Shown: one piece after another, positions 3,834-52,270 of the stretch
How positions within the stretch are numbered: position 1 is the first letter of the stretch
Layout of the letters: every line of letters begins with the position of its first letter
From: Planctomycetota bacterium
GTDB lineage: Bacteria > Planctomycetota > Planctomycetia > Planctomycetales > Planctomycetaceae
Length of the DNA stretch: 64,000 nt
Direction of reading: 5' to 3'
Assembly: GCA_018242525.1 (NCBI GenBank)
Contig: JAFEBS010000038.1
Span: forward strand, 127,464 to 191,463
The notes under the pieces: model-generated
The model's database searches: none
Told to the model about the DNA's origin: nothing
What the model saw: only the letters and a program-made list of their open reading frames with translations
Position numbers and translations under genes: made by a program

Positions 3834-4382
3834 ATGCGTTACGTCAGCCTGATTGCGATTGCGCTCATCGGATCATCATCGGCCCTGCACGCACAACTCA
3901 CTGTGCAGCAACCGGTGGTGGGTACGACCGGCGTCGCGACCTCAGTTTCAGTGCCTGATCGCGGCAGCACATTCCTGGGAGGTGTCAGTTCTGCTCAGTC
4001 TTTCCGCAATAGCTATGGACCGTTGCGGACCGGAACCGGCCGTGGATATGGTCTGTCGGGGGGATCGATGTCTGCTCATGTGTACATCATCGATCTGCAC
4101 GCCATGGACGAGGCCATACTGAATTCGGTTCCCGATTCGCTGCCTCCCGTTTCCATTCGCAGTCGCTCGGTTTCCACGGAGAGGACCGAGGCACCTCGCG
4201 AAGTCTCGCCGGTTGAAAAGGCGGCCAATTTCGAGCGACTGGCAATTCACGCTGAGGCCGCAGGTAAGACCGGCGTTGCCAGGCTGCATTGGCAGATGGC
4301 GGCAAAGTATGGATCCACTCTGGCCGCACAAAAGCTCGGTCGTCCGGCAGTCGACAATTCCAGGTCAACCGCGCAGAAGTAA
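3834..4382 (+). CDS. Exported protein of unknown function, 182 residues
   Basis: No known family recognised. From the ATG at 3834 the product begins with a short Sec signal peptide (hydrophobic LIAIALIGSSSAL, likely cleavage after LHA near residue 20). The mature part is about 160 residues: a Gly/Ser/Thr-rich stretch, then a Lys/Glu-containing helical segment around residues 125-170 (EKAANFERLAIHAEAAGKTG). That segment resembles a single TPR-like helix pair and may mediate protein contacts. An open frame continues upstream to 3600 but lacks a signal peptide, so I use 3834, which has CAGGA about 10 nt before it. It probably acts in the periplasm. Confidence 0.65.
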   Translation: MRYVSLIAIALIGSSSALHAQLTVQQPVVGTTGVATSVSVPDRGSTFLGGVSSAQSFRNSYGPLRTGTGRGYGLSGGSMSAHVYIIDLHAMDEAILNSVPDSLPPVSIRSRSVSTERTEAPREVSPVEKAANFERLAIHAEAAGKTGVARLHWQMAAKYGSTLAAQKLGRPAVDNSRSTAQK

Positions 4383-4505
4383 GCAGCGCTGATTTGTCGA
4401 GCCCACCTGTAACGGTCGTTCCATCGGCGCAGAATTTGAGCTGTGTGCGGGGGGCAGGACCTGCCGATCTTTTTGAGACGCAAGACTTTTCTGCAGGAGA
4501 TCGCG

Positions 4506-5720
4506 ATGCTGGGGATGCGGCAATGGATTCTCGGAGGCTGGGTAATTCTGACTGTCTTTTCGGGTGTGCAGCAGGCGGGCGCCGTTCCCGGTTGCCCGTT
4601 TTGTGCCCCCAGCGATCCCCCCTTCAGTCAGCGCTTGTCTGAATGCGATGTCGCGCTGGAAGTCAAATGGGTGTCGCTCGACACGGACGAGAAGCTTCAG
4701 CAGGAATCGACGTCGTTTGAGGTGGTGTCCGCGTTTCGTACATCCCGACAGAAGTTCAACGTTGGCGATCGCGTGAAATGGGGCTACGGACGTGACGGAA
4801 AGCCTGGCGATCCGTTCCTGCTGATCGGCAAGGAGGATGGCGAGACGATCACCTGGGAAAGGCCGATCGCGCTGGGGGGCGAGTACCTGTTCCAATACAT
4901 TCGAAAAGTGCCTCCTCCGGAAGCGCCCGATCGACTGTCATTCTTTCTGAAATTCCTCGAATTCCCCGACTCGGAAATCTGCAGTGATGCCTACGCAGAA
5001 GTCAGCCGTGCCAGCTTCAAAGAGGTTGCGGCACTCGCTCCAAAACTGCCTCGGGAGAAGCTGAGGAAGTGGCTGCAGTCGGACGATCCCCAGGTTCAGG
5101 TTCGCCTGGGACTTTACGGAATGATGCTGGGGTTGGCTGGCGACGACAGCGATGCCGAGTTTCTTGAGCAGTTGATCATGAAAACACCCGATCCCGACAG
5201 ACCACGTCTGGGGATCGATGGGATGATGGCTGGATACATCTTGCTTCGTGGCGAGGCCGGTCTCCAGAAATTGCTCGCGGCCAAGATGGATGATCCCAGG
5301 GGAGAGGATGACCTGATCCCGTTGCGAAACACCCTGGTGTTCCTGTGGGACTACAGTCAGGACCGCGTGCCGCCGGAAGCCATCCGGGCTGCCATGCGAC
5401 GATTCCTGGATCATCCCCGAATCGCGGTGAATGTCATCGAGAATCTGTCTCGCTGGAAGGACTGGCAGTCGTTGGACAAGTTGATCATGGCCTACGGAAC
5501 AGCGCCGTTTGATTCCAACCAGTCCCAGCAGAAGATCATCGCTTTCGCCCTGGTTTGCGAACGGGACGGCTTCAATCAGTCTCCGAAGCCAATTCCCGCA
5601 TCGGCCCTCAAAGCCCGACAATTCCTGGATGGACTTGACCCCGAAGTCGTGAAAGCGACGGAACGACGGTTCATGATTTCGCGGCGGCGTAACGACACGA
5701 AGCCTGTCAAAGCGCCGTGA
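4506..5720 (+). CDS. Exported protein of unknown function with helical repeats
   Basis: The 404-residue product has a signal peptide (hydrophobic WILGGWVILTVFSGV, likely cleavage after AGA near residue 26). The mature protein opens with CPFC followed by SECDVALEVKW, suggesting a disulfide or metal-site Cys pair at the start of a beta domain of about 130 residues. From about residue 190 onward it is alpha-helical with HEAT-like spacing. I do not recognise the family. The ATG at 4506 has AGGAGAT about 7 nt upstream; an in-frame extension to 4443 would spoil the signal peptide. It follows another exported unknown on the same strand, with 123 nt between them. Confidence 0.7.
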   Translation: MLGMRQWILGGWVILTVFSGVQQAGAVPGCPFCAPSDPPFSQRLSECDVALEVKWVSLDTDEKLQQESTSFEVVSAFRTSRQKFNVGDRVKWGYGRDGKPGDPFLLIGKEDGETITWERPIALGGEYLFQYIRKVPPPEAPDRLSFFLKFLEFPDSEICSDAYAEVSRASFKEVAALAPKLPREKLRKWLQSDDPQVQVRLGLYGMMLGLAGDDSDAEFLEQLIMKTPDPDRPRLGIDGMMAGYILLRGEAGLQKLLAAKMDDPRGEDDLIPLRNTLVFLWDYSQDRVPPEAIRAAMRRFLDHPRIAVNVIENLSRWKDWQSLDKLIMAYGTAPFDSNQSQQKIIAFALVCERDGFNQSPKPIPASALKARQFLDGLDPEVVKATERRFMISRRRNDTKPVKAP

Positions 5721-16775: not shown

Positions 16776-16881
16776 CTAGCCGCCTGTGGTAAAAGGGGGC
16801 TGACCCTTTGGAGGGCGGTCGATTCACTTTGAAAATCGCATGCCCGGAGAGGGCCCGCCCCTTTTGTCACGGGTTGCTCGC
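16776..16881. repeat. Family A palindromic element, degenerate copy
   Basis: About 106 nt, aligning end to end with the copy at 51133-51239: it starts CTAGC, shares the core TGACCCTTTGGAGGGC, then TTGAAAATCGC and CCCGGAGAGGG, and ends in a diverged right arm. The arms no longer pair perfectly. It sits between glnA and the CorC/HlyC gene, ending 26 nt before that gene's start codon and so close to its ribosome site. Confidence 0.85.
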
Positions 16882-31025: not shown

Positions 31026-31955
31026 TTACGTGAGCAACGTCTGCAAATGGCAGGCGACGGATTCCGCGAGTCGCTGGATGTTGTAGCCGCCTTCCAGACA
31101 ACTGACGAGTTTGCCGCCGCAATGCGTGTTGGCGACCTGCTGCACCAGCTTCGTCAAGGATTCAAAGTCCTCCGTCTGCAACCCCAGCGAGCCAATCGGA
31201 TCTTCAGCATGGGCATCGAACCCGGCACTGATCAGGATCAGTTGCGGCCGACATTTTGTGGCGGCGTCAGTCAGCAGGGATTCGAATTGACGCAGGTAGT
31301 CCTTTCGGTCCGTTCCAAACTTGACCGGCAGATTGAACTTCGTTCCCAGGCCTTGCCCTTTCCCGGTTTCGTCCTTGTCACCGGTTCCGGGATAAAACGG
31401 CGACCTGTGCGCCGACAGGAACCACACGTCTTCGCGTTCGTAAAAGATCTCTTGAGTCCCGTTCCCGTGATGAACGTCCCAATCGATGACCAGCACCCGT
31501 TCCAGCTTGTGATGTTTGATCGCATGGTCCGCCGCCAGCGCGATATTGTTGAACAGGCAGAACCCCATGGCATCGTGTGCCAGGGCATGGTGTCCCGGCG
31601 GACGGACCAGGCAAAGTGCGGACTTGTCTGTCCCTTTCATCACGGCATCGACGGCGGCGAGGCCGGTACCGACGGCGCGACAGGCGACGTCATACGACTT
31701 CGGTGACAGAAACGTGTCCTGCTCAATCCACCCACCGCCCGCCCCCGCGTACTCAGCCACACGACCGACGTACATCACTCCGTGAATCCGGGCGATTTCC
31801 TCCACGGTCGCCACCCGAGTCGGTGCCGTCTTACACCTGGCCGACAGCCCGGTCCGAGTTAACTCGGCAGTGATCGACTTCAGCCGTTCCGGACATTCCC
31901 GATGGGGCCCGGTTTCGTGCTGCAGAAAGTGGTCGTCCGTGTACAGGATTGTCAT
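31026..31955 (-). CDS. Histone deacetylase-family deacylase
   Basis: The 309-residue product belongs to the zinc-dependent HDAC/AcuC/acetylpolyamine amidohydrolase fold. RPPGHHAL holds the paired catalytic His (H122, H123). VIDWDVHHGNGT (D160, H162) and SAGFDAH (D247) supply the three zinc ligands. CLVRPPGHH and FCLFNNIALAA match the family closely. It removes acyl groups from Lys side chains, polyamines or other amines; the substrate cannot be chosen by eye. ATG 31955 gives the usual family N-terminus (MTILYTDDHF), although the in-frame start at 31985 cannot be excluded. It lies alone between the lipoprotein gene and the repeat cluster upstream of it. Confidence 0.88.
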   Translation of the reverse strand: MTILYTDDHFLQHETGPHRECPERLKSITAELTRTGLSARCKTAPTRVATVEEIARIHGVMYVGRVAEYAGAGGGWIEQDTFLSPKSYDVACRAVGTGLAAVDAVMKGTDKSALCLVRPPGHHALAHDAMGFCLFNNIALAADHAIKHHKLERVLVIDWDVHHGNGTQEIFYEREDVWFLSAHRSPFYPGTGDKDETGKGQGLGTKFNLPVKFGTDRKDYLRQFESLLTDAATKCRPQLILISAGFDAHAEDPIGSLGLQTEDFESLTKLVQQVANTHCGGKLVSCLEGGYNIQRLAESVACHLQTLLT

Positions 31956-32037
31956 GTCGGAATTCCCGCCTGAAACCCGTCCCAAAATGGCTCTTCAGGC
32001 GTGCAGGTTACACGAAATCCAGGCAGGCGCGAACGTG

Positions 32038-32047
32038 GATCAACGCC
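32038..32047. repeat. 10-bp direct repeat (left), likely target-site duplication
   Basis: GATCAACGCC directly before the left end (CAATGGC) of the family B element. The same ten bases follow its right end at 32306-32315. Confidence 0.75.
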
Positions 32048-32305
32048 CAATGGCACTGACTTTGTAAGCCGCACGGCGCTGAATAGTGTTGCATGAACCT
32101 GGGACATTAGCCCGACGCGCGAGCGAGGGATTCGTCGATGCGTGTCCAACTTGCGGATTCCTCGCTCGCGCGTCGGGCTAGTGTTTCCAGGCTTCCGCGA
32201 TTCCGTCCCAACATTCTGCAACCCCATTTAGCCGCGGGTGCATTCTCACTCGTACCCGAAGAACCCGCGGCTAGCGCCGTGCGGCTCACAAATCAAGCGC
32301 CATTG
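32048..32305. mobile_element. Family B palindromic element, copy 1, split by family C
   Basis: Terminal inverted repeat CAATGGC/GCCATTG at 32048-32054 and 32299-32305, flanked on both sides by the identical 10-bp direct repeat GATCAACGCC. The inner arms read AGCCGCACGGCGCT on the left and the complementary AGCGCCGTGCGGCT on the right. Between left GGCGCT and right AGCCGCGGG lies a 149-nt foreign segment (family C). Removing that segment gives an element of about 109 nt matching copy 2 at 38828-38928. It encodes nothing and would need a transposase in trans. It lies 3' of metH. Confidence 0.75.
32081..32229. mobile_element. Family C palindromic element nested in family B
   Basis: The core is a near-perfect inverted repeat of about 24 bp at 32109-32180, starting TAGCCCGACGCGCGAGCGAGG and ending in its complement. 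Imperfect pairing extends outward (CCTGG...TAGCCC on both arms). It interrupts the family B element at GGCGCT/AGCCGCGGG. No clear target duplication is seen at this junction. Confidence 0.65.
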
Positions 32306-32315
32306 GATCAACGCC
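32306..32315. repeat. 10-bp direct repeat (right), likely target-site duplication
   Basis: GATCAACGCC directly after GCCATTG, identical to 32038-32047. It ends 5 nt before the metH stop codon. Confidence 0.75.
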
Positions 32316-32320
32316 GTCGG

Positions 32321-35300
32321 TCAGTTGTCATACCCAAGATTCGGTGACAACCACCGTTCGATTTCCGCCTGCGGCAGATCCTTGCGGCACGCATAGTCTT
32401 CGACCTGATCACGCAAAATCTTGTCGACACTGAAATACCGTGCGTCTGGATGAGCGAAGTACAGTCCGCTGACACTGGCGGCCGGATGCATCGCGAAGCT
32501 TTCCGTCAAATGAATGCCGGTCAGTGCTTCGGCATCAAGCAATTGGAACAGTTTCGGCTTTTCCGTATGGTCCGGGCAGGCCGGGTAACCGTAGGCTGGA
32601 CGAATCCCACGATACTTCTCGGCAATCAGATCCTCTCGTGTCAAATCCTCGTCCTGTCCATACCCCCATTCCACACGCGCCTGGTGGTGCAGGTATTCGG
32701 CAAAAGCCTCGGCCAGCCGATCGGCCAGAGCCTTGGTCATGATCGACTGGTAGTCGTCGTGCAGTTCGTCCTGGAACTTGTTTGCCAGTTCGTCGCAGCC
32801 GATCCCCGTGGTGACGGCGAACGCTCCCAGGTAATCCTGGCGACCGGATTCGCGCGGAGCGATATAGTCGGCCAGCGAGCGGAAATCGCTTTGACCAGGA
32901 CGTTCCCACTGTTGACGCAACATCGGGAATCGAACGGTCGAACCCGGACTCGCGCCGGCAGGCGGTATCGTCACCACCACATCATCCCCTTCCGAGACAG
33001 CTTCCCAGAAGCCATACACGCCGCGTGCCATCAGCAGCTTTTCGTCGACGATCCGGCGAAGCAGTCCCTGAGCATCTTCAAATACCTTGCGAGCCTGCTC
33101 ACCAACGGTCGGATCTTCAAAAATCTTCGGGTATTTGCCGCGCAACTCCCAAGTCTGGAAAAACGGCGACCAGTCGATGTAGGGAACCAATTCCTTCAAG
33201 TCGGGGGTGACGACGCGGGTCCCCAGGAATGCCGGAGTATCGATGCGCACCTGGGACCAGTCCGTGGGGTACCGCCGTTTCAAGGCGTCGGCATACGGAA
33301 CCAGCGTCCGAGTGGACTGCATCGCTTCGTAGTTCGTTCGATCTCGATTCTGGACCGACCTGTTCTTCGCCGAGAAGTCCGCCTTGCGACTGGGATCCAA
33401 CAGACTTTCGACGGCCGGGACTGACAGGGACGCATCGACCACATGCACGACCGGTTCATCGTAGTGCGGCGAAATCTTGACGGCCGTATGCTTGGCGGAC
33501 GTCGTGGCCCCTCCGATCAGCAGGGGGACGGTAAATCCCTGCCGTTTCATCTCTTTCGCCACATGCGTCATTTCATCCAATGATGGAGTAATCAGGCCGC
33601 TCAGGCCGATAATGTCGGCCCCTTCTGTCCTGGCAACTTCCAGGATTTTGTCGCTGGAAACCATCACTCCCAGGTCAATGACATCAAAGTTGTTGCATCG
33701 CAGGACGACAGCCACGATGTTCTTGCCAATGTCATGAACGTCCCCTTTCACAGTGGCCAGCACGATGCGACCGCGCGACGAGTCTCGTGCCGTCGCCTCG
33801 GCAACGATCTCACCGCGCGCTTCTTTCACCGCATTGGCCGCGGCTTTTTCCGCCTCCATGAACGGTTCCAGGTAGGCCACCGCCTTTTTCATGACGCGGG
33901 CGCTCTTCACCACTTGCGGCAGGAACATTTTCCCTTCACCGAACAGCGCCCCGACGACGCTCATTCCTGCCATCAATGGCCCCTGGATCACCTCCAGCGG
34001 TTTACCGTACTTGATCCGGGCGTCCTCCGTGTCCGCGTCGATGAAGTCGGTGATGCCCTTCAGCAATGAGTGCTTGAGCCGCTCTTCAACGGATTCCAGC
34101 CGCCACGCCTCGACGCCCGCTTCGTCGGTCGCCTCTTTGCCGATCCCCTTGAACTTCTCGGAAAACGTGATCAGGCGTTCGGTGGCGTCCGGTCGCCGGT
34201 TCAGCAGCACGTCCTCCACGTAGACCAGCAGTTCCTTGTCGATTTCGTCGTACACCGCCAGTTGCCCGGCGTTGACAATCCCCATGTCCAGTCCGGCCTG
34301 GATGGCGTGGTACAGGAAGGCGGCATTGATCGCTTCGCGGACCAGATCGTTGCCTCGAAACGAGAACGAAACGTTGCTGACTCCACCCGAGGTCTTCGCA
34401 CCAGGACATTCCCGTTTGATCTGGCGAACGGCGTCAATGAATTCCACCGCATAATTTGAGTGTTCATCCATGCCGGTCCCGACCGTCAGGATGTTGGCGT
34501 CGAAAATGATATCTTCGGCGGGGACGCCGGCCTGCTCTGTCAGGAGTTTGTACGCACGCTTGCAGATCCGCACTTTATCCGCACAGGTGGTCGCCTGACC
34601 CTGTTCGTCGAACGCCATCACCACGATGGCCGCTCCATAACGGCGGATGCGCCGGGCCTGCTCCAGGAATTTCTCCTCGCCTTCCTTCATGCTGATGGAA
34701 TTGACGACTCCCTTGCCGTCCAGGCACTTCAACCCGGCTTCGATGACGCTGAACTTTGAGCTGTCGACCATGACCGGGACTTTGTTGATGTCTGGATCGT
34801 CGCAGATCAGGTTCACGAACTGAGTCATTTCCTTTTCGCTGTCGAGCAAGCCTTCGTCCATGTTGACGTCAACCATGTTCGCTCCACCTTCGACCTGCTG
34901 GCCGGCGATGGCGATGGCTTCGTCATATTTCTCTTCCTTGATCAAGCGGGCAAACTTGCGCGACCCGGTGACATTGGTCCGTTCCCCGATCATCAGGAAG
35001 TTCGAGTCCTGACGCAGTTCGATGCGTTCCTTGCCGCAGTACGCGGACACGCGGGGGATGTCTGGAATCCGACGCGGCGGAATTCCGGCGACCGCTTCCG
35101 CGATCGCCTGGATGTAATCCGGATTGGTGCCACAGCAACCACCGACGACGTTGACCCAGCCGTTCAATGCAAAGTCGCGCAAGTTGGCCGCCACGTCGGC
35201 CGGATTCGAATCGAATCCTCCGAATCCGTCCGGCATCCCCGCATTGGGGTAGCAACTGACGTAGCTGGGAGCGAGATTCGCCAGGCTCTCCACGTACGAT

Positions 35301-36058
35301 CGCATCTGTTTCGGACCGAGGGCGCAATTGAGTCCGATGGTCAGCAGTGGCGCATGTGACACCGACGTCCAGAACGCTTCGACCGATTGTCCTGTCAGAG
35401 TGCGCCCCCCGGTAAAAATCGTTCCGGAAACCATGACCGGCAGACGCACACCAAGTTCTGCAAACACGTCTTCGATGGCGAACAGGCACGCTTTCATGTT
35501 CAGCGTGTCAAACGAAGTTTCGGACAATAGCAGATCAACGCCGCCTTCGATCAGGCCGCGGATCTGTTCCGAATAGGATTCCACCATGCGGTCGAAGGTC
35601 ACCGGGCGGTACCCTGGCTTGTCGGCATTGAACGACAGCATCACTTTCGTCGGGCCAATGCTCCCCGCGACAAATCGCGGCTTGTTGGGAGTCGTGGTCA
35701 GAAACTCATCGCAGACATCCCGCGCCAAGCGGGCGGCAGTGATGTTGATTTCACGAGTTAACTCGGCCAGCCCGAATTCTTCCATCGAAATCAGATTCGC
35801 GTTGAACGTATCTGTTTCAATGATGTCGGCCCCGGCGGCCAGGTATTGTCGGTGAATCTCGGAGATCATCTTTGGCTGGGTCAGGACCAGCACATCACCC
35901 GCGTTTTTCAGGTCGATCGGATGTGACAGGAATCGTGAGCCCCGATAGTCGGCCTCCGTCGGTTGATACCGCTGAATCATCGTTCCCATGGCCCCGTCGA
36001 GGACCAGGATGCGTTCCGACAGCAATTGTTCGAAGTAACCGGCGGGGCGAGTTGGCAT
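32321..36058 (-). CDS. metH: Cobalamin-dependent methionine synthase
   Basis: The enzyme moves a methyl group from 5-methyl-THF to homocysteine through cobalamin. The 1245-residue product has all modules: homocysteine/zinc domain at about 1-330 ([11 protein letters not shown] and GGCCGTNP give the zinc Cys residues), pterin domain at about 350-620, cap domain, cobalamin domain with [13 protein letters not shown] (His ligand in DxHxxG), and a C-terminal reactivation domain ([12 protein letters not shown]). It is full length. The ATG at 36058 opens at [13 protein letters not shown]; no strong ribosome site is visible, and the 86-nt spacing suggests co-transcription after metF. No cobalamin riboswitch was seen upstream. 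The family B element lies just past the stop codon. Confidence 0.95.
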
Positions 36059-36144
36059 ACGTCTTGGCTATTCAAGGAAAGTGACCGTTGCTGCAGCACA
36101 GCAACCGTCTGTTGTTCAAGTGATCGAAGTCGGTCAGTCAGGAA

Positions 36145-37032
36145 TCACAACGCTGTCGTTGGCTGCCCCAGATTGAGGGCTTCGATGATGCGGGTACACG
36201 CGTGGCTCTTGTTCAGACAGTACAGGTGGATTCCGGGAACCCCTTGATCAATCAGTTCGCGGCACTGGGCAATCGCGAACTCGACACCAATTTCATACTG
36301 GGCCGCCTTGTCGTCTTTGACCGCTTCCAGCCGTGCCGCCAGCCCCCGGGGAATTGTGGCTCCGCACATGGCCGTGATCCGCTGGATCCGCGCAAACTCG
36401 GTGATGGGCATGATTCCCGGGATCAGCGGCACTCCCAGGTGTTCCCGTTGAATGAGATCCCGGAAGCGGAAAAAGTTCGCGTTGTCGAAGAACAATTGCG
36501 TGAAGATCGCATCCGCGCCCGCTTTCACCTTGCGGACCAGGTTCTCAAAATCGACTTCAAAACTCGGGGCGGCCGGGTGCTTTTCGGGATATCCGGCGAC
36601 GCCGATCCCGAACTCTGGAAAGTGCTCCCGGATCAGTCCGACCAATTCGTTGGCATACTTCAGACCTCCGTCCACCGGTTTGAATTCGGACTGGCCGGCA
36701 GGGGCATCCCCGCGCAGGGCCATGATGTTGCGGATTCCAGCCGACCAGGCACACATCAGCCATTCCAGCAATTCCGCTTTGGTGCTGCCGACGCAGGTAA
36801 AATGTGCGGTGGCCGGTCGTCCAAACGCGGTTTGAATTTCCTGGCACCACTCGACGGTACGTTTGCTGGTGGAACCTCCGGCCCCATACGTACAGGAGAC
36901 AAACGCAGGTTGAAATGGAACCAGTTCACGCAAGGTCTGCCGTAACGATTCATCCCCTTCCGGTGTTTTGGGGGGAAAGATTTCGATCGACAGGCCAAAT
37001 TGCCTGCCTGCATAAATGTCACGAATACGCAT
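36145..37032 (-). CDS. metF: 5,10-methylenetetrahydrofolate reductase
   Basis: This flavoenzyme makes the 5-methyl-THF that MetH consumes. The 295-residue product has the MetF TIM barrel: FGLSIEIFPPKT at 12-23 with the catalytic Glu, VSCTYGAGGST at 45-55, NIMALRGDAP at about 103-112 for folate and FAD, and FTQLFFDN at about 185-192. The start ATG at 37032 has AAGGA upstream and a promoter-like pair at 37054-37082. It is followed by metH, so the two form a methionine operon. The reductant is probably NADH or NADPH by analogy. Confidence 0.94.
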   Translation of the reverse strand: MRIRDIYAGRQFGLSIEIFPPKTPEGDESLRQTLRELVPFQPAFVSCTYGAGGSTSKRTVEWCQEIQTAFGRPATAHFTCVGSTKAELLEWLMCAWSAGIRNIMALRGDAPAGQSEFKPVDGGLKYANELVGLIREHFPEFGIGVAGYPEKHPAAPSFEVDFENLVRKVKAGADAIFTQLFFDNANFFRFRDLIQREHLGVPLIPGIMPITEFARIQRITAMCGATIPRGLAARLEAVKDDKAAQYEIGVEFAIAQCRELIDQGVPGIHLYCLNKSHACTRIIEALNLGQPTTAL

Positions 37033-37053
37033 CCATCAAGTCCTTGCAACGAC

Positions 37054-37082
37054 ATTGTTTGAGGGAGCAAGAGGATACGCAA
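37054..37082 (-). promoter_or_regulatory. Promoter-like elements for metF
   Basis: On the minus strand TTGCGT (37082-37077) and AACAAT (37059-37054) are 17 nt apart. The start point would fall near 37047, giving a leader of about 15 nt that just holds the AAGGA ribosome site. Confidence 0.4.
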
Positions 37083-37134
37083 TCGCACTGAAATACGCCA
37101 CTTTGAAGGCATGGCTCATGGCACTCGCCACCGT

Positions 37135-37155
37135 ACCCGACGCTGCCAGCGTCGG
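37135..37155. repeat. Short palindrome, family D, copy 2
   Basis: ACCCGACGCTGCCAGCGTCGG without the last base; the 19-bp palindrome CCGACGCTG-c-CAGCGTCGG is identical to that at 34-52. It lies between the metF and ahcY promoters. Confidence 0.6.
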
Positions 37156-37255
37156 CGTCCTTTCCCATAGGTGTGACGAATCGCCGTTTGGCCTGTCGCG
37201 TTCGTTTCGCCGATGCTGGCAGCAGCGGGCACGGGAAAGAAGCGGTTCCGCGAGG

Positions 37256-37284
37256 GCGACATCAGTGGTCGATGACGCTACAAT
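37256..37284 (+). promoter_or_regulatory. Promoter-like elements for ahcY
   Basis: GCGACA (37256-37261) and TACAAT (37279-37284) are 17 nt apart. Transcription would start near 37291, giving a leader of about 109 nt. Confidence 0.4.
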
Positions 37285-37295
37285 GTGGCGACTTT

Positions 37296-37332
37296 CGCGG
37301 AACTGGCTGGCTCAATGGAGTTCCCACCGCGT
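37296..37332 (+). promoter_or_regulatory. Leader hairpin upstream of ahcY
   Basis: CGCGGAACT at 37296-37304 pairs with AGTT and CCGCG further on (to about 37330), with a four-base bulge CCCA and a loop of about 13 nt. It would lie at the very start of the ahcY leader. It does not match the SAH riboswitch consensus I know. Confidence 0.35.
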
Positions 37333-37399
37333 CAAATCGTTGATTTTACAGGAATGATCACGTCGATCGTTCCGTCAAGGCTTCTGGAGGATTTTCGGA

Positions 37400-38767
37400 A
37401 TGGCAACGGCCGCAATGCCCAAGGTTCCCGCTCAGACAAATGATCAGAAACTCCCTTACAAGGTCAAGGACATGTCCCTGGCTGAATGGGGTCGCAAGGA
37501 AATTGACATTGCCGAAAACGAGATGCCCGGATTGATGGCTCTCCGAACCAAGTATGGTCCCTCCAAACCGCTTGCCGGTGCCCGGATCGCCGGTTGCCTG
37601 CACATGACCATTCAGACTGCAGTCCTGATCGAAACTCTGACGGCCCTGGGCGCCGAAGTCACCTGGAGCAGCTGCAATATCTTCTCAACTCAAGACCAGG
37701 CGGCCGCCGCCATTGCGGCGACCGGGGTGCCGGTCTATGCGTGGAAGGGGATGACCAACGAAGAATTCGACTGGTGCATCGAACAGACACTGTTTTTCCC
37801 CGACGGCAAGCCGCTGAACATGATCCTGGACGACGGTGGCGACCTGACTGCCATTGTGCATAACAAGTACCCCGAACTGCTCGCCGGGATTAAGGGGATC
37901 AGCGAAGAAACGACCACCGGTGTCCATCGCCTGGTGCAGATGCATGAACGTGGCGAACTGAAGATTCCGTCGATCAACGTCAATGACTCTGTCACCAAGA
38001 GCAAGTTTGACAATCTGTACGGGTGTCGCGAATCTCTGGCCGACGGGATCAAGCGGGCGACCGACGTGATGATCGCCGGAAAAGTTGTTGTTGTAGCGGG
38101 TTACGGCGACGTCGGCAAAGGCTGCGCGATCTCGATGCAACGCTACGGAGCCCGCGTGATCGTGACGGAAGTCGATCCGATCTGCGCACTGCAGGCGGCG
38201 ATGGAAGGCTTCCAGGTCACGACCATGGAAGAAGCCGTCGAGGAAGGAAACATCTTCGTCACGACCACCGGTTGCTGCGACATCATCCGCGGTGAACACA
38301 TGTCGCAGATGAAGAACGACGCCATCATCTGCAACATCGGTCACTTTGACGTCGAAATCGACGTGGCCTGGCTGGAAAACCAGGTTGCCTCGGGCAAGGC
38401 CAAAAAGATCAACGTCAAGCCAGCCGAAGTTGGTGCGGTCGACAAGTATACGTTTGCAGACACCGGCCGCAGCGTGTTACTGCTCGCCCAGGGTCGCCTG
38501 GTCAACCTGGGCTGTGCGACGGGCCACCCATCATTCGTGATGTCCAACAGCTTCACGAACCAGACAATCGCCCAGATTGCTCTGTGGACCGAACCCGAAA
38601 AGTACCCGCTGGGGGTTCATCGTCTGCCCAAGGCGCTGGACGAAGAAGTGGCCCGGCTGCATCTGGAGACGATTGGCGTCAAGCTGTCGAAGCTGACCCA
38701 GAAGCAGGCTGACTACCTGGGCCTGCCCGTGGCCGGTCCGTTCAAGCCGGAACACTACCGGTACTAA
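37400..38767 (+). CDS. ahcY: Adenosylhomocysteinase
   Basis: The enzyme splits S-adenosylhomocysteine into adenosine and homocysteine, lifting product inhibition of methyltransferases and feeding MetH. The 455-residue product is full length: substrate residues in [15 protein letters not shown] (about 67-81) and [14 protein letters not shown], the NAD-binding loop [12 protein letters not shown] at about 233-244, [21 protein letters not shown], and the C-terminus KPEHYRY that reaches into the partner subunit's NAD site. GGAGG sits 12 nt before the ATG at 37400. It faces away from metF-metH, so the three genes form an activated-methyl-cycle cluster. Confidence 0.96.
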
Positions 38768-38817
38768 GTTCAACTGCCCGCAAATGAGGGGACACTGTTA
38801 AGTGAGGCGCGCCGGGT

Positions 38818-38827
38818 GCCGCCAGGC
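38818..38827. repeat. 10-bp flanking repeat (left)
   Basis: GCCGCCAGGC directly before CAATG of the family B element. It matches GCCGTCAGGC after the right end in nine of ten bases. Confidence 0.65.
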
Positions 38828-38928
38828 CAATGTCTGTGAGCCGCACGGCGCTAGCCGCGGGTGTATTCTCACTCGTATCCGAAGAACCCGCGGCTAGCGC
38901 CGTGCGGCTCACAAAGTCAGTGCCATTG
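38828..38928. mobile_element. Family B palindromic element, copy 2
   Basis: A 101-nt element with ends CAATG/CATTG. Its inner arms are a perfect 24-bp inverted repeat, AGCCGCACGGCGCTAGCC extended by GCGGGT on the left (38840-38863) and the complement on the right (ending 38910), around a 23-nt loop. The left arm lacks about nine bases present in copy 1 (GCACTGACT). It lies 60 nt after ahcY and encodes nothing. Confidence 0.8.
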
Positions 38929-38938
38929 GCCGTCAGGC
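38929..38938. repeat. 10-bp flanking repeat (right)
   Basis: GCCGTCAGGC directly after CATTG, with one mismatch to 38818-38827. Interpreted as the second half of a target-site duplication. Confidence 0.65.
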
Positions 38939-50462: not shown

Positions 50463-51136
50463 CCGAGACTCTGCAGGCGGCGCTCAGCGCCGTCGAGTAT
50501 GCGCAGTCTCAGGCCGTGCCTGTGGAAATCCTTGTCGTCGACAATCAAAGTACTGACCAGACTTGGAGCCTGCTGCAGCAGTTCGCCTCTGAGCACGGGA
50601 TTCGTCCAATACAACTTCCAACGCTGGGCGCGGCCCGCGCACGCAACCATGGCCGTCGTCATTCCCGGGGGCGGATCCTGGTGTTCGTTGATGCGGATAC
50701 GCATCTGCCGTTTGACGCGCTGGTGCGCATCAAGCACTGGTGTGATCACATGGGAAAAGAAGCGGGAATCACCCGCCTGTCCGGTCTGGACGGCGGCTGG
50801 AAAGCTTGCCTCTGGTGGACGTTCTGGGAACATGTTCGACGGCTGCCGCTTTCCCGCGCGAAGGCAATGCCCGCGATCATGTTTTGCACGGCAGCCGTGT
50901 TTGATGAATTCGGGCCGTTTGACGAAGAAGTCGCGATCGGCGAAGAATGGCCAATCCTCGCAAGTCTCTACCGCCACCGGCCCTGGAACTTTGTGTACGA
51001 TCGCACTCTGACGGGACTGACCTCCAGTCGACGGATGGAACGACAACCGTTTGGATACCTGCGAACCTTTTTCAAATACGTCTGGGCCATCCTTCAAAAG
51101 CGGGGACGGATCCATTACACCGACCGCATCCGCTAG
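50357..51136 (+). CDS. Family 2 glycosyltransferase
   Basis: The 259-residue product is a GT-A fold transferase: HVSLIIPARNEEHWL at 21-35, EILVVDNQSTDQTW at 57-70 for nucleotide binding, and DAD at 112-114 in LVFVDADTHLP as the metal-binding DxD. FGPFDEEVAIGEEW near 192-205 holds the likely catalytic acid. The C-terminus is basic and may sit on the membrane. The catalytic domain begins only about 63 nt after the ATG at 50357, and no later start fits, so the 106-nt overlap with the methyltransferase gene is real. The TAG stop falls at the left end of a family A palindrome. The acceptor is unknown. Confidence 0.85.
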   Translation: MVGISDQPRLDRTGCEPSHPHVSLIIPARNEEHWLTETLQAALSAVEYAQSQAVPVEILVVDNQSTDQTWSLLQQFASEHGIRPIQLPTLGAARARNHGRRHSRGRILVFVDADTHLPFDALVRIKHWCDHMGKEAGITRLSGLDGGWKACLWWTFWEHVRRLPLSRAKAMPAIMFCTAAVFDEFGPFDEEVAIGEEWPILASLYRHRPWNFVYDRTLTGLTSSRRMERQPFGYLRTFFKYVWAILQKRGRIHYTDRIR

Positions 51137-51239
51137 CAGCCTGTGGCAAAAGGTGTCTGACCCTTTGGAGGGCACTGAATTCACCTTGAAAATCGCGTGC
51201 CCGGAGAGGGTCAGACACCTTTTGCCACAGGCTGCCAGC
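51133..51239. repeat. Family A palindromic element, intact copy
   Basis: Perfect 28-bp inverted repeat: the left arm 51136-51163 starts GCAGCCTGTGGCAAAAGG and the right arm 51208-51235 is its exact complement. One mismatch then extends the arms to CTAGC/GCCAG. The centre carries CTTTGGAGGGC, TTGAAAATCGCG and CCCGGAGAG. The glycosyltransferase stop codon TAG (51134-51136) lies in its left edge. It encodes nothing, and transcripts could fold into a very long stem. Confidence 0.9.
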
Positions 51240-51323: not shown

Positions 51324-52196
51324 ATGACCGAATCGAACGAGTCAGCGAATGCCAGTCCCCTGCGAGTTTTGAGCCTGGAAAGCCGCCGGGCGGACGAAAT
51401 GAAATCTCTGATTGAGCGGCACGGAGGAATCCCCACGGTCGCCCCGTCCATGCGTGAGATTCCGCTCGACGAAAACACCGCCGCTCTGCAGTTCGGAACT
51501 GAACTGTTCGCGGGCCGGATCGATGTCGTGGTCTTCATGACCGGAGTCGGTGCGACCGCGCTCCTGGAAACGCTTTCACTGCGCTGGCCACGAGCGGAGA
51601 TTCTGACAGCCTTGTCGCAGGCGGTCATTGTCGTTCGCGGTCCTAAGCCGACGGCGGTCTTGCGAGACTGGGGACTTCGAATCGATCACCGGGCTCCCGA
51701 ACCCAACACGTGGCACGAATTGCTGGCGACAATGGTGGCCGGGATCCCACTCGCCGGGAAAACGATTGCCATCCAGGAATACGGGAAACCCAGTGATGAC
51801 TTCTATCAGGAGCTCCGTCAGCACGGAGCGACCGTGCAGGCGGTTCCGGTCTATCGCTGGGATTTGCCGTCAGACACGCAGCCTCTACGCACGGCGATCG
51901 CACAAACAATCGCAGGTGATTTCGATGTGATCCTGTTTACCAGCGCCCAGCAATTTCACAACGTCCTGCAGGTTGCCGCCGAATCCGGCCCGAAGGATCC
52001 GTGGCTGCAGGCCGCCAATCGATGCGTGGTCGCTTCCATCGGCCCGACCGCGACGGAAACGCTGGTTGAAGGGGGCCTGCTCGTTGATTGCCAGCCGTCA
52101 CACCCCAAAATGGGACCGCTGGTCAGGGAATCATTGCTGGCCGCGCCCGAGATTCTGGCGAGAAAGCGGTCGCCGCCCGTGGTCAAAGGGGGCTGA
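51324..52196 (+). CDS. hemD: Uroporphyrinogen-III synthase
   Basis: HemD closes hydroxymethylbilane with inversion of ring D, the branch point to heme and cobalamin. The 290-residue product has the two-domain HemD fold: SLESRRADEMKSLIERHGG at 17-35 and VVVFMTGVGATALLETL at about 67-83 in the first domain, GKTIAIQEYGKPSDDFYQEL and VPVYRWDLP in the second, then VILFTSAQQFHNVL and VASIGPTATETL. Sequence conservation is low in this family but these landmarks are clear. The last eight codons (PPVVKGG and stop) lie inside the family A element that follows. Other heme genes are not near. Confidence 0.87.
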   Translation: MTESNESANASPLRVLSLESRRADEMKSLIERHGGIPTVAPSMREIPLDENTAALQFGTELFAGRIDVVVFMTGVGATALLETLSLRWPRAEILTALSQAVIVVRGPKPTAVLRDWGLRIDHRAPEPNTWHELLATMVAGIPLAGKTIAIQEYGKPSDDFYQELRQHGATVQAVPVYRWDLPSDTQPLRTAIAQTIAGDFDVILFTSAQQFHNVLQVAAESGPKDPWLQAANRCVVASIGPTATETLVEGGLLVDCQPSHPKMGPLVRESLLAAPEILARKRSPPVVKGG

Positions 52197-52270
52197 CAGG
52201 GCTGACCCTTTGGAGGGCAATTAATTCACCTTGAAAACAGCGTGCCCGGAGAGGGTCTGACCTTCTTCCC
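52172..52270. repeat. Family A palindromic element, third complete copy, diverged
   Basis: Starts GCCGCCCGTGGTCAAAGGGGGCTGA, close to the copy at 16776, then repeats GGGCTGA, adding nine bases, before CCCTTTGGAGGGC, TTGAAAACAGCG and CCCGGAGAGGGTCTGACC. The right arm decays after that. It supplies the hemD stop codon (TGA at 52194-52196), and hemD is thus bracketed by two family A elements in the same orientation. Confidence 0.85.

Follow-up and report, generated by a model that had tools for sequence, protein, structure and literature searches.

Positions 32048–32305 of the window (the whole 64,000-nucleotide stretch of planctomycete DNA analysed here) very probably represent a non-autonomous, MITE-type derivative of an insertion sequence of the IS4 family, IS4 subgroup, which is nested with a second element. 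The kind is already known, as an IS4-subgroup MITE; the layered build is unusual and makes the case more than routine. The segment begins with CAATGGC at 32048 and ends with GCCATTG at 32305, and the ten bases GATCAACGCC directly adjoin both ends (32038–32047 and 32306–32315), as the initial annotation had stated. The identical stretch is actually 12 bp long (TGGATCAACGCC), since the first TG of the right copy doubles as the tip of that side's inverted repeat. The inverted termini are borne out by arms at 32047–32080 and 32273–32306 that pair over 34 nt; these are only 85% complementary, which implies that the insertion event was not recent. Direct repeats of 10 bp surround a segment of exactly 258 bp at 3 of 63,550 positions in the window and, over all spacings of 100–399, adjoin 71 of 19 million segments, so that such a repeat is very unlikely to fall together with a 34-nt inverted repeat by chance.

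The segment carries no gene, in agreement with the earlier description: the sole crossing ORF of at least 80 residues (31952–32227, 91 amino acids) runs through the repeats and exits the element. This frame crosses the hairpin of element B (see below) and includes the residues SPTRERG; spurious small annotated proteins may stem from such palindromes. An Rfam scan of the 258 bp gave sub-threshold matches only, with no family at threshold, and a comparison of the element with plasmids gave no match.

Nested build of the element

Two nested elements, rather than the single one of 258 bp first described, make up the segment. A whole-genome search with the element returned separate repeat families for different parts of it, and alignment showed that 32080–32228 is an insertion missing from the second copy in the window and from full-length copies. 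Uninterrupted copies read GGCGC-TA-GCCGC, and the copy at 32048–32305 reads GGCGC-TG-(147 bp)-TA-GCCGC, the interior being a composite with an insertion at 32082–32228 (element B). Without element B, the outer element is a 109-bp unit in which a 27-bp REP-like palindrome, present as an inverted pair, is enclosed by 16-bp ends CAATGGCACTKACTTT. In a longer class of the outer element (∼184 bp), one REP pair is accompanied by a further hairpin. The features are as follows.

32038–32047, plus strand: left target-site duplication GATCAACGCC, identical to 32306–32315; its 10-bp length is backed by 72 end-pairs
32048–32305, no strand: composite element (109-bp REP-carrying IS4-type MITE and 149-bp insertion) with ends CAATGGC/GCCATTG, from alignment to uninterrupted copies
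32048–32063, plus strand: left terminal inverted repeat CAATGGCACTGACTTT, an IS4-subgroup type end (-AATR--------WTW), from genome copies and the Singulisphaera match
32064–32079, plus strand: left half of the first REP (GTAAGCCGCACGGCGC), broken at its CTAG, from genome copies of the REP GTGAGCSGCAMGGCGCTAGCCGCSGGT
32080–32081, plus strand: left-hand copy of the TA duplicated by the inner insertion, now TG, from the uninterrupted copies and other copies of element B (CTAAATAG)
32082–32228, no strand: inserted element B, 147 bp, ends AATAGTGTTGCATG and CTGCAACCCCATT, with many genome copies up to 97% identical
32104–32184, no strand: hairpin of element B with 31-nt arms that are 90% complementary
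32229–32230, plus strand: right TA duplication of element B
32231–32289, minus strand: remainder (right half) of the first REP, a spacer and the second REP, which is inverted (GTGAGCCGCACGGCGCTAGCCGCGGGT on the minus strand)
32290–32305, minus strand: right terminal inverted repeat (AAATCAAGCGCCATTG), decayed, with 3 mismatches to the consensus end
32306–32315, plus strand: right target-site duplication GATCAACGCC, a few bp beyond the metH stop codon
38818–38827, plus strand: left duplication GCCGCCAGGC of the second window copy, 9/10 identical to 38929–38938
38828–38928, no strand: second window copy, without element B and with a shortened left arm, just beyond the ahcY-like gene
38929–38938, plus strand: right duplication GCCGTCAGGC of the second window copy

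The second REP (32263–32289) is an exact minus-strand match, located at G000:C31:159726–159752 in the assembly. Element B has the consensus CTA-AATAGCGTTGCA...TGCAACGCTATT-TAG over its other copies (also given as CTA-AATAG...TATT-TAG) and repeatedly sits in the CTAG of other palindromes elsewhere in the genome. Its empty site (GGCGCTAGCCGC) is present in dozens of copies, every B-free copy being such a site. The TA of CTAG is a known target of IS630/Tc1-mariner elements (Tenzen and Ohtsubo 1991, as cited in PMC2170065), and element B shares with them both this target and an apparent TA duplication, which points to an IS630-like agent. It differs in that no transposase with its ends was found: a search of the element's own genome revealed no autonomous element with the ends of element B, and the one IS630-type (DDE_3) gene of the genome was rejected as its mover because the ends of that gene (GAGCGTTTCCACG) are different. 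This single gene (L382, G000:C74) lies between inverted GAGCGTTTCCACG ends with CTA on one side and TAG on the other, the arrangement that insertion at TA in CTAG should give. Another palindromic repeat family, CTAGCAGCCTGTGGTAAAAGGGG...GGTCTGACC, also has CTAG ends and occurs in the window at 16776–16865, 51133–51222 and 52178–52267; elsewhere in the genome element B is inserted in the CTAG of this family (L002, L006, L007 and L352).

The two copies of the outer element (32038–38938) bracket a methionine-cycle cluster, each directly beyond a stop codon. The cluster consists of metH (32321–36058), a methylenetetrahydrofolate-reductase-like gene (36145–37032) and an ahcY-like gene (37400–38767). 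The 258 bp are strongly palindromic, with a DNA fold of −90.7 kcal/mol (z of −10.5 against dinucleotide shuffles). Whatever its origin, the palindrome might be kept for a function between metH and the following gene, either as a transcription terminator or as a hairpin at the mRNA end, and this very stable fold, the location directly beyond metH and that of the second copy directly beyond the ahcY-like gene would suit such a role. We regard it as unlikely, since the metH strand contains no strong G+C hairpin with a T run but just a stem of 7 pairs whose tail is weak, and since transposition alone explains the ends, the duplication and the copy number. A terminator would in any case be a use rather than an origin and is compatible with descent from an IS4-type MITE.

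Genomic copies and the target-site duplication

The 22-nt arm (terminal repeat and next six bases) has 88 copies in the genome at up to three mismatches, compared with none for the reversed pattern, and the terminal repeat CAATGGCACTKACTTT is also widespread in other planctomycetes. Left and right ends were paired within 60–2500 bp and the adjoining flanks were compared, with shuffled pairings as control. A duplication of length 10 with at least 9/10 identical bases was found at 22 of 72 end-pairs (shuffled mean 2.06, maximum 6), and 14 of the 72 show an exact 10/10 duplication (0.81 shuffled). Among the same pairs, other lengths yield two cases at 11 and none at 6–9 or 12–14; in the element's own genome alone, 9 of 32 pairs reach 9/10 (0.97 shuffled). 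The proposal of transposition made in the initial annotation is thus upheld by ends that recur about 90 times and by a duplication that is statistically specific to 10 bp. The target consensus is palindromic, roughly GGCKNNMGCC.

An 8-bp duplication (ATCAACGC) produced by the same mechanism, with CCAATGG as the tip, scores equally well at that boundary (28/66 compared with 3.4 shuffled) because most targets start with G and end with C. We reject this reading as very unlikely. The IS4-subgroup end rule -AATR--------WTW and duplications of 10–13 bp (PMC2266710) fit the tip CAATGG. At one locus (L293) both flanks are AGCGTTGGCC, and the base following CATTG is A instead of the G that the longer tip requires; this A consequently belongs to the duplication and not to the element. 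Furthermore, the outermost two of the ten duplicated positions are constrained (G in 21/22, C in 20/22), and the bases beyond them are not.

The initial annotation had named a lack of abutting 10-bp repeats at most copies as grounds against transposition, and formally such a lack is observed, with at least 9/10 identity in only 9 of 53 own-genome candidate pairs; the survivors nevertheless lie far above the shuffled expectation. The ∼184-bp full-length copies in the own genome retain a duplication of at least 9/10 in 8 of 19 cases. In the 105–114-bp size class, to which the composite element belongs once element B is removed, none of the 13 other pairs has a clear duplication, and many short relatives in other planctomycetes retain theirs. 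We read copies without a duplication as decayed or recombined; recombination among near-identical palindromes, one-sided loss and, for some copies, RAYT-type movement that makes no duplication could all contribute. A related short copy (L376:1920–2035) has IS4 ends around the second hairpin only, with no REP pair and with 8/10 flanking bases in common, and is possibly a form that preceded capture of the REP pair.

An orthologous empty site was sought at 14 metH loci of congeners and none was found, since past the stop codon each of these loci is either rearranged or too diverged (the congeners' metH genes are about 71–77% identical to that of the window and the spacers do not align). For other copies, repeats supplied empty sites instead: a host repeat GGTGAGCCGGGT-GCCGTCAGGC-CCCGGACG is intact in some copies and in others is interrupted with GCCGTCAGGC duplicated. 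The repeat GGTGAGCCGGGTGCCGTCAGGCCCCGGACG is a frequent insertion target of the outer element and was found both intact and interrupted, with GCCGTCAGGC on both sides (L035, L046, L057, L063, L064 and L154).

IS4-type ends and an autonomous relative

The initial annotation had linked the 10-bp duplication to IS4-type DDE transposases and had called for a full-length insertion sequence with the same ends. An intact element of this description occurs twice in Singulisphaera acidiphila DSM 18658, at loci L311 and L316. It has the exact ends CAATGGCACTTACTTT, which the left end of the window element, CAATGGCACTGACTTT, matches except at the variable base K, measures 1444 bp from tip to tip and is flanked by an 11-bp duplication counted from the tip CAATGG. 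Its one gene (L311:2568–3911) encodes a 447-residue DDE transposase that scores 142 bits against the NCBIfam IS4-family model (cutoff 115) and matches Pfam DDE_Tnp_1. The protein contains a Y(2)R(3)E(6)K motif (YGQRQNIETDLRDLK), with D–D and D–E spacings of about 80 and 105. The element thus shows the YREK and D(60–110)D(100–150)E signatures of the IS4 subgroup together with ends of the form -AATR--------WTW, a duplication within 10–13 bp and a length within 1400–1650 bp.

In a scan of public genomes for the ends, the matches listed are mostly from planctomycetes, with scattered single matches in other phyla that look like chance. We searched 1.5 kb on each side of 117 exact ends from public genomes with pieces of the IS4 transposase, and matches lay inside the ends in 31 of 117 cases and outside in one, which was the query's own flank. 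This inside-only distribution supports the IS4 link. In one congener (G002) the end is followed by a broken IS4 transposase. At least ten interior families, mutually unrelated by blastn, have the same ends in common, a pattern typical of non-autonomous derivatives that are mobilised in trans. The earlier suggestion of a MITE-like element moved by a transposase in trans is therefore supported, since an intact IS4-family element with the same ends exists elsewhere; we infer the trans action itself, as the element's own assembly contains no intact cognate gene. The only candidate there is a distant transposase fragment with other ends on contig C79. Orphan or one-sided ends in the own genome were rejected as a source, nine such places having no transposase remnant and the tenth region containing the C79 fragment. 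The cognate partner may have been lost or may be unassembled (the assembly consists of 99 contigs). A sequence search of solved structures returned chance matches only and no transposase.

Short length, absence of coding sequence, terminal inverted repeats, an adjoining 10/10 duplication and the occurrence of the same ends on an autonomous element are all as expected of a MITE; a cognate transposase in the same genome, which is usual but not strictly defining, is absent from this assembly. MIC231 and other IS4-family MITEs are short and non-autonomous, carry the ends of an IS4-family element and are mobilised in trans. The present element resembles MITEs of the MIC231 type in its short non-autonomous build with IS4-family ends, but its ends and target are those of the IS4 subgroup and not of IS231, and its interior is a REP-like palindrome. 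MIC231 is cited in PMC2266710. In the IS4 subgroup, ends of the form -AATR--------WTW are accompanied by duplications of 10–13 bp (De Palmenaer et al. 2008, PMC2266710). The likeness to this subgroup comprises the ends, duplications of 10–11 bp, a ∼1.44-kb autonomous relative of DDE/YREK type and a strong target preference; the difference lies in a 109-bp unit without a transposase gene that carries a REP-like pair.

These comparisons suggest a course of events. A transposase acting in trans would recognise the 16-bp ends CAATGGCACTKACTTT and mobilise the 109-bp unit, presumably by cut-and-paste chemistry. The unit would be inserted at GATCAACGCC, shortly beyond the metH stop codon, where the strands are cut with a 10-bp stagger, and repair would copy the ten bases to give the target duplication. 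Later, the 147-bp element B, with inverted ends AATAGYGTTGCA, entered the first REP at the TA of its CTAG, much as IS630/Tc1-mariner elements do. The nesting and its order can be read from the sequence itself, as can the ends, the 10-bp duplication, the IS4 link and the target preference.

The REP-like core

The statement in the initial annotation that the element is not a simple REP palindrome holds for the outer layer, where IS4 ends wrap the core, and fails for the core, which is itself a REP-like inverted pair. The REP GTGAGCSGCAMGGCGCTAGCCGCSGGT has 225 copies in the genome, compared with none for the reversed pattern and more than twice as many as the IS4 end. Among 52 pairs examined, the REPs form inverted pairs of a high-copy short palindrome, as REPINs do. 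Pairs without IS4 ends exist, in a sample weighted towards end-bearing copies, since the IS4 ends had served to retrieve most of the loci. The genome contains 18 Y1 matches, and one Y1_Tnp (IS200/RAYT-like) ORF, at L105:940–2032 (G000:C71, about 4004–5096), has four inverted REP pairs around it, none of them with IS4 ends. Its protein narrowly passes the Pfam cutoff and falls below that of the NCBIfam RAYT model. We regard this gene as a candidate RAYT for the REP of the core. Enclosed by IS4 ends, the core is thus similar to a REPIN that possibly has its own RAYT.

These observations, together with the other copies of the 105–114-bp class that have no duplication, speak for a rival reading, in which a Y1 tyrosine transposase (RAYT) spread a REP or REPIN palindrome without duplicating its target and the 10-bp repeat at the flanks is due to chance or recombination. 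As an explanation for 32048–32305 this is most improbable. In this copy the REP pair is bounded by IS4 ends and the 10-bp duplication is perfect, and across many copies the duplication shows specificity for a length of 10. In other planctomycetes, about nine unrelated interiors lie between the same ends, as does an intact IS4 element. The C71 protein lies under the curated cutoff for REP-associated transposases. The likeness to REPIN/RAYT systems (PMC3116915, PMC2817692 and PMC3733652) consists of inverted REP pairs, more than 200 REP copies and a flanked Y1 transposase gene in the same genome. The difference is that this copy is wrapped in DDE-type ends and has a target duplication, a product not expected from RAYT movement.

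With an IS4-type MITE as the preferred reading, the core has a further property, in that it contains the preferred target (GGCGCTAGCC). Copies of ISRm22, an IS4-family element of Sinorhizobium meliloti, lie in REP palindromes and have a palindromic, GC-bounded target (PMC1525189); ISRm22 differs in being autonomous and of the IS4Sa subgroup, and here the core of the element also bears the preferred target. Tentatively, planctomycete repeats of this kind might have two engines, with REP pairs spread by a RAYT-like enzyme being captured between IS4 ends and then also moved by a DDE transposase that targets GGCKNNMGCC in the REP (GGCGCTAGCC). If this were true, each insertion would bring a new preferred target and so build nested palindrome mosaics.

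We found no earlier report of such elements in planctomycetes in the literature open to search. A single 16-bp end and a palindromic 10-bp target are common to an intact IS4 element and to about ten unrelated hairpin MITEs across planctomycetes, and this common end provides a handle on the origin of the dense palindrome mosaics in planctomycete intergenic DNA. It also helps annotators to spot spurious small ORFs made by such palindromes, and the intact element in the cultured S. acidiphila offers a system for testing transposition and REP-type targeting.
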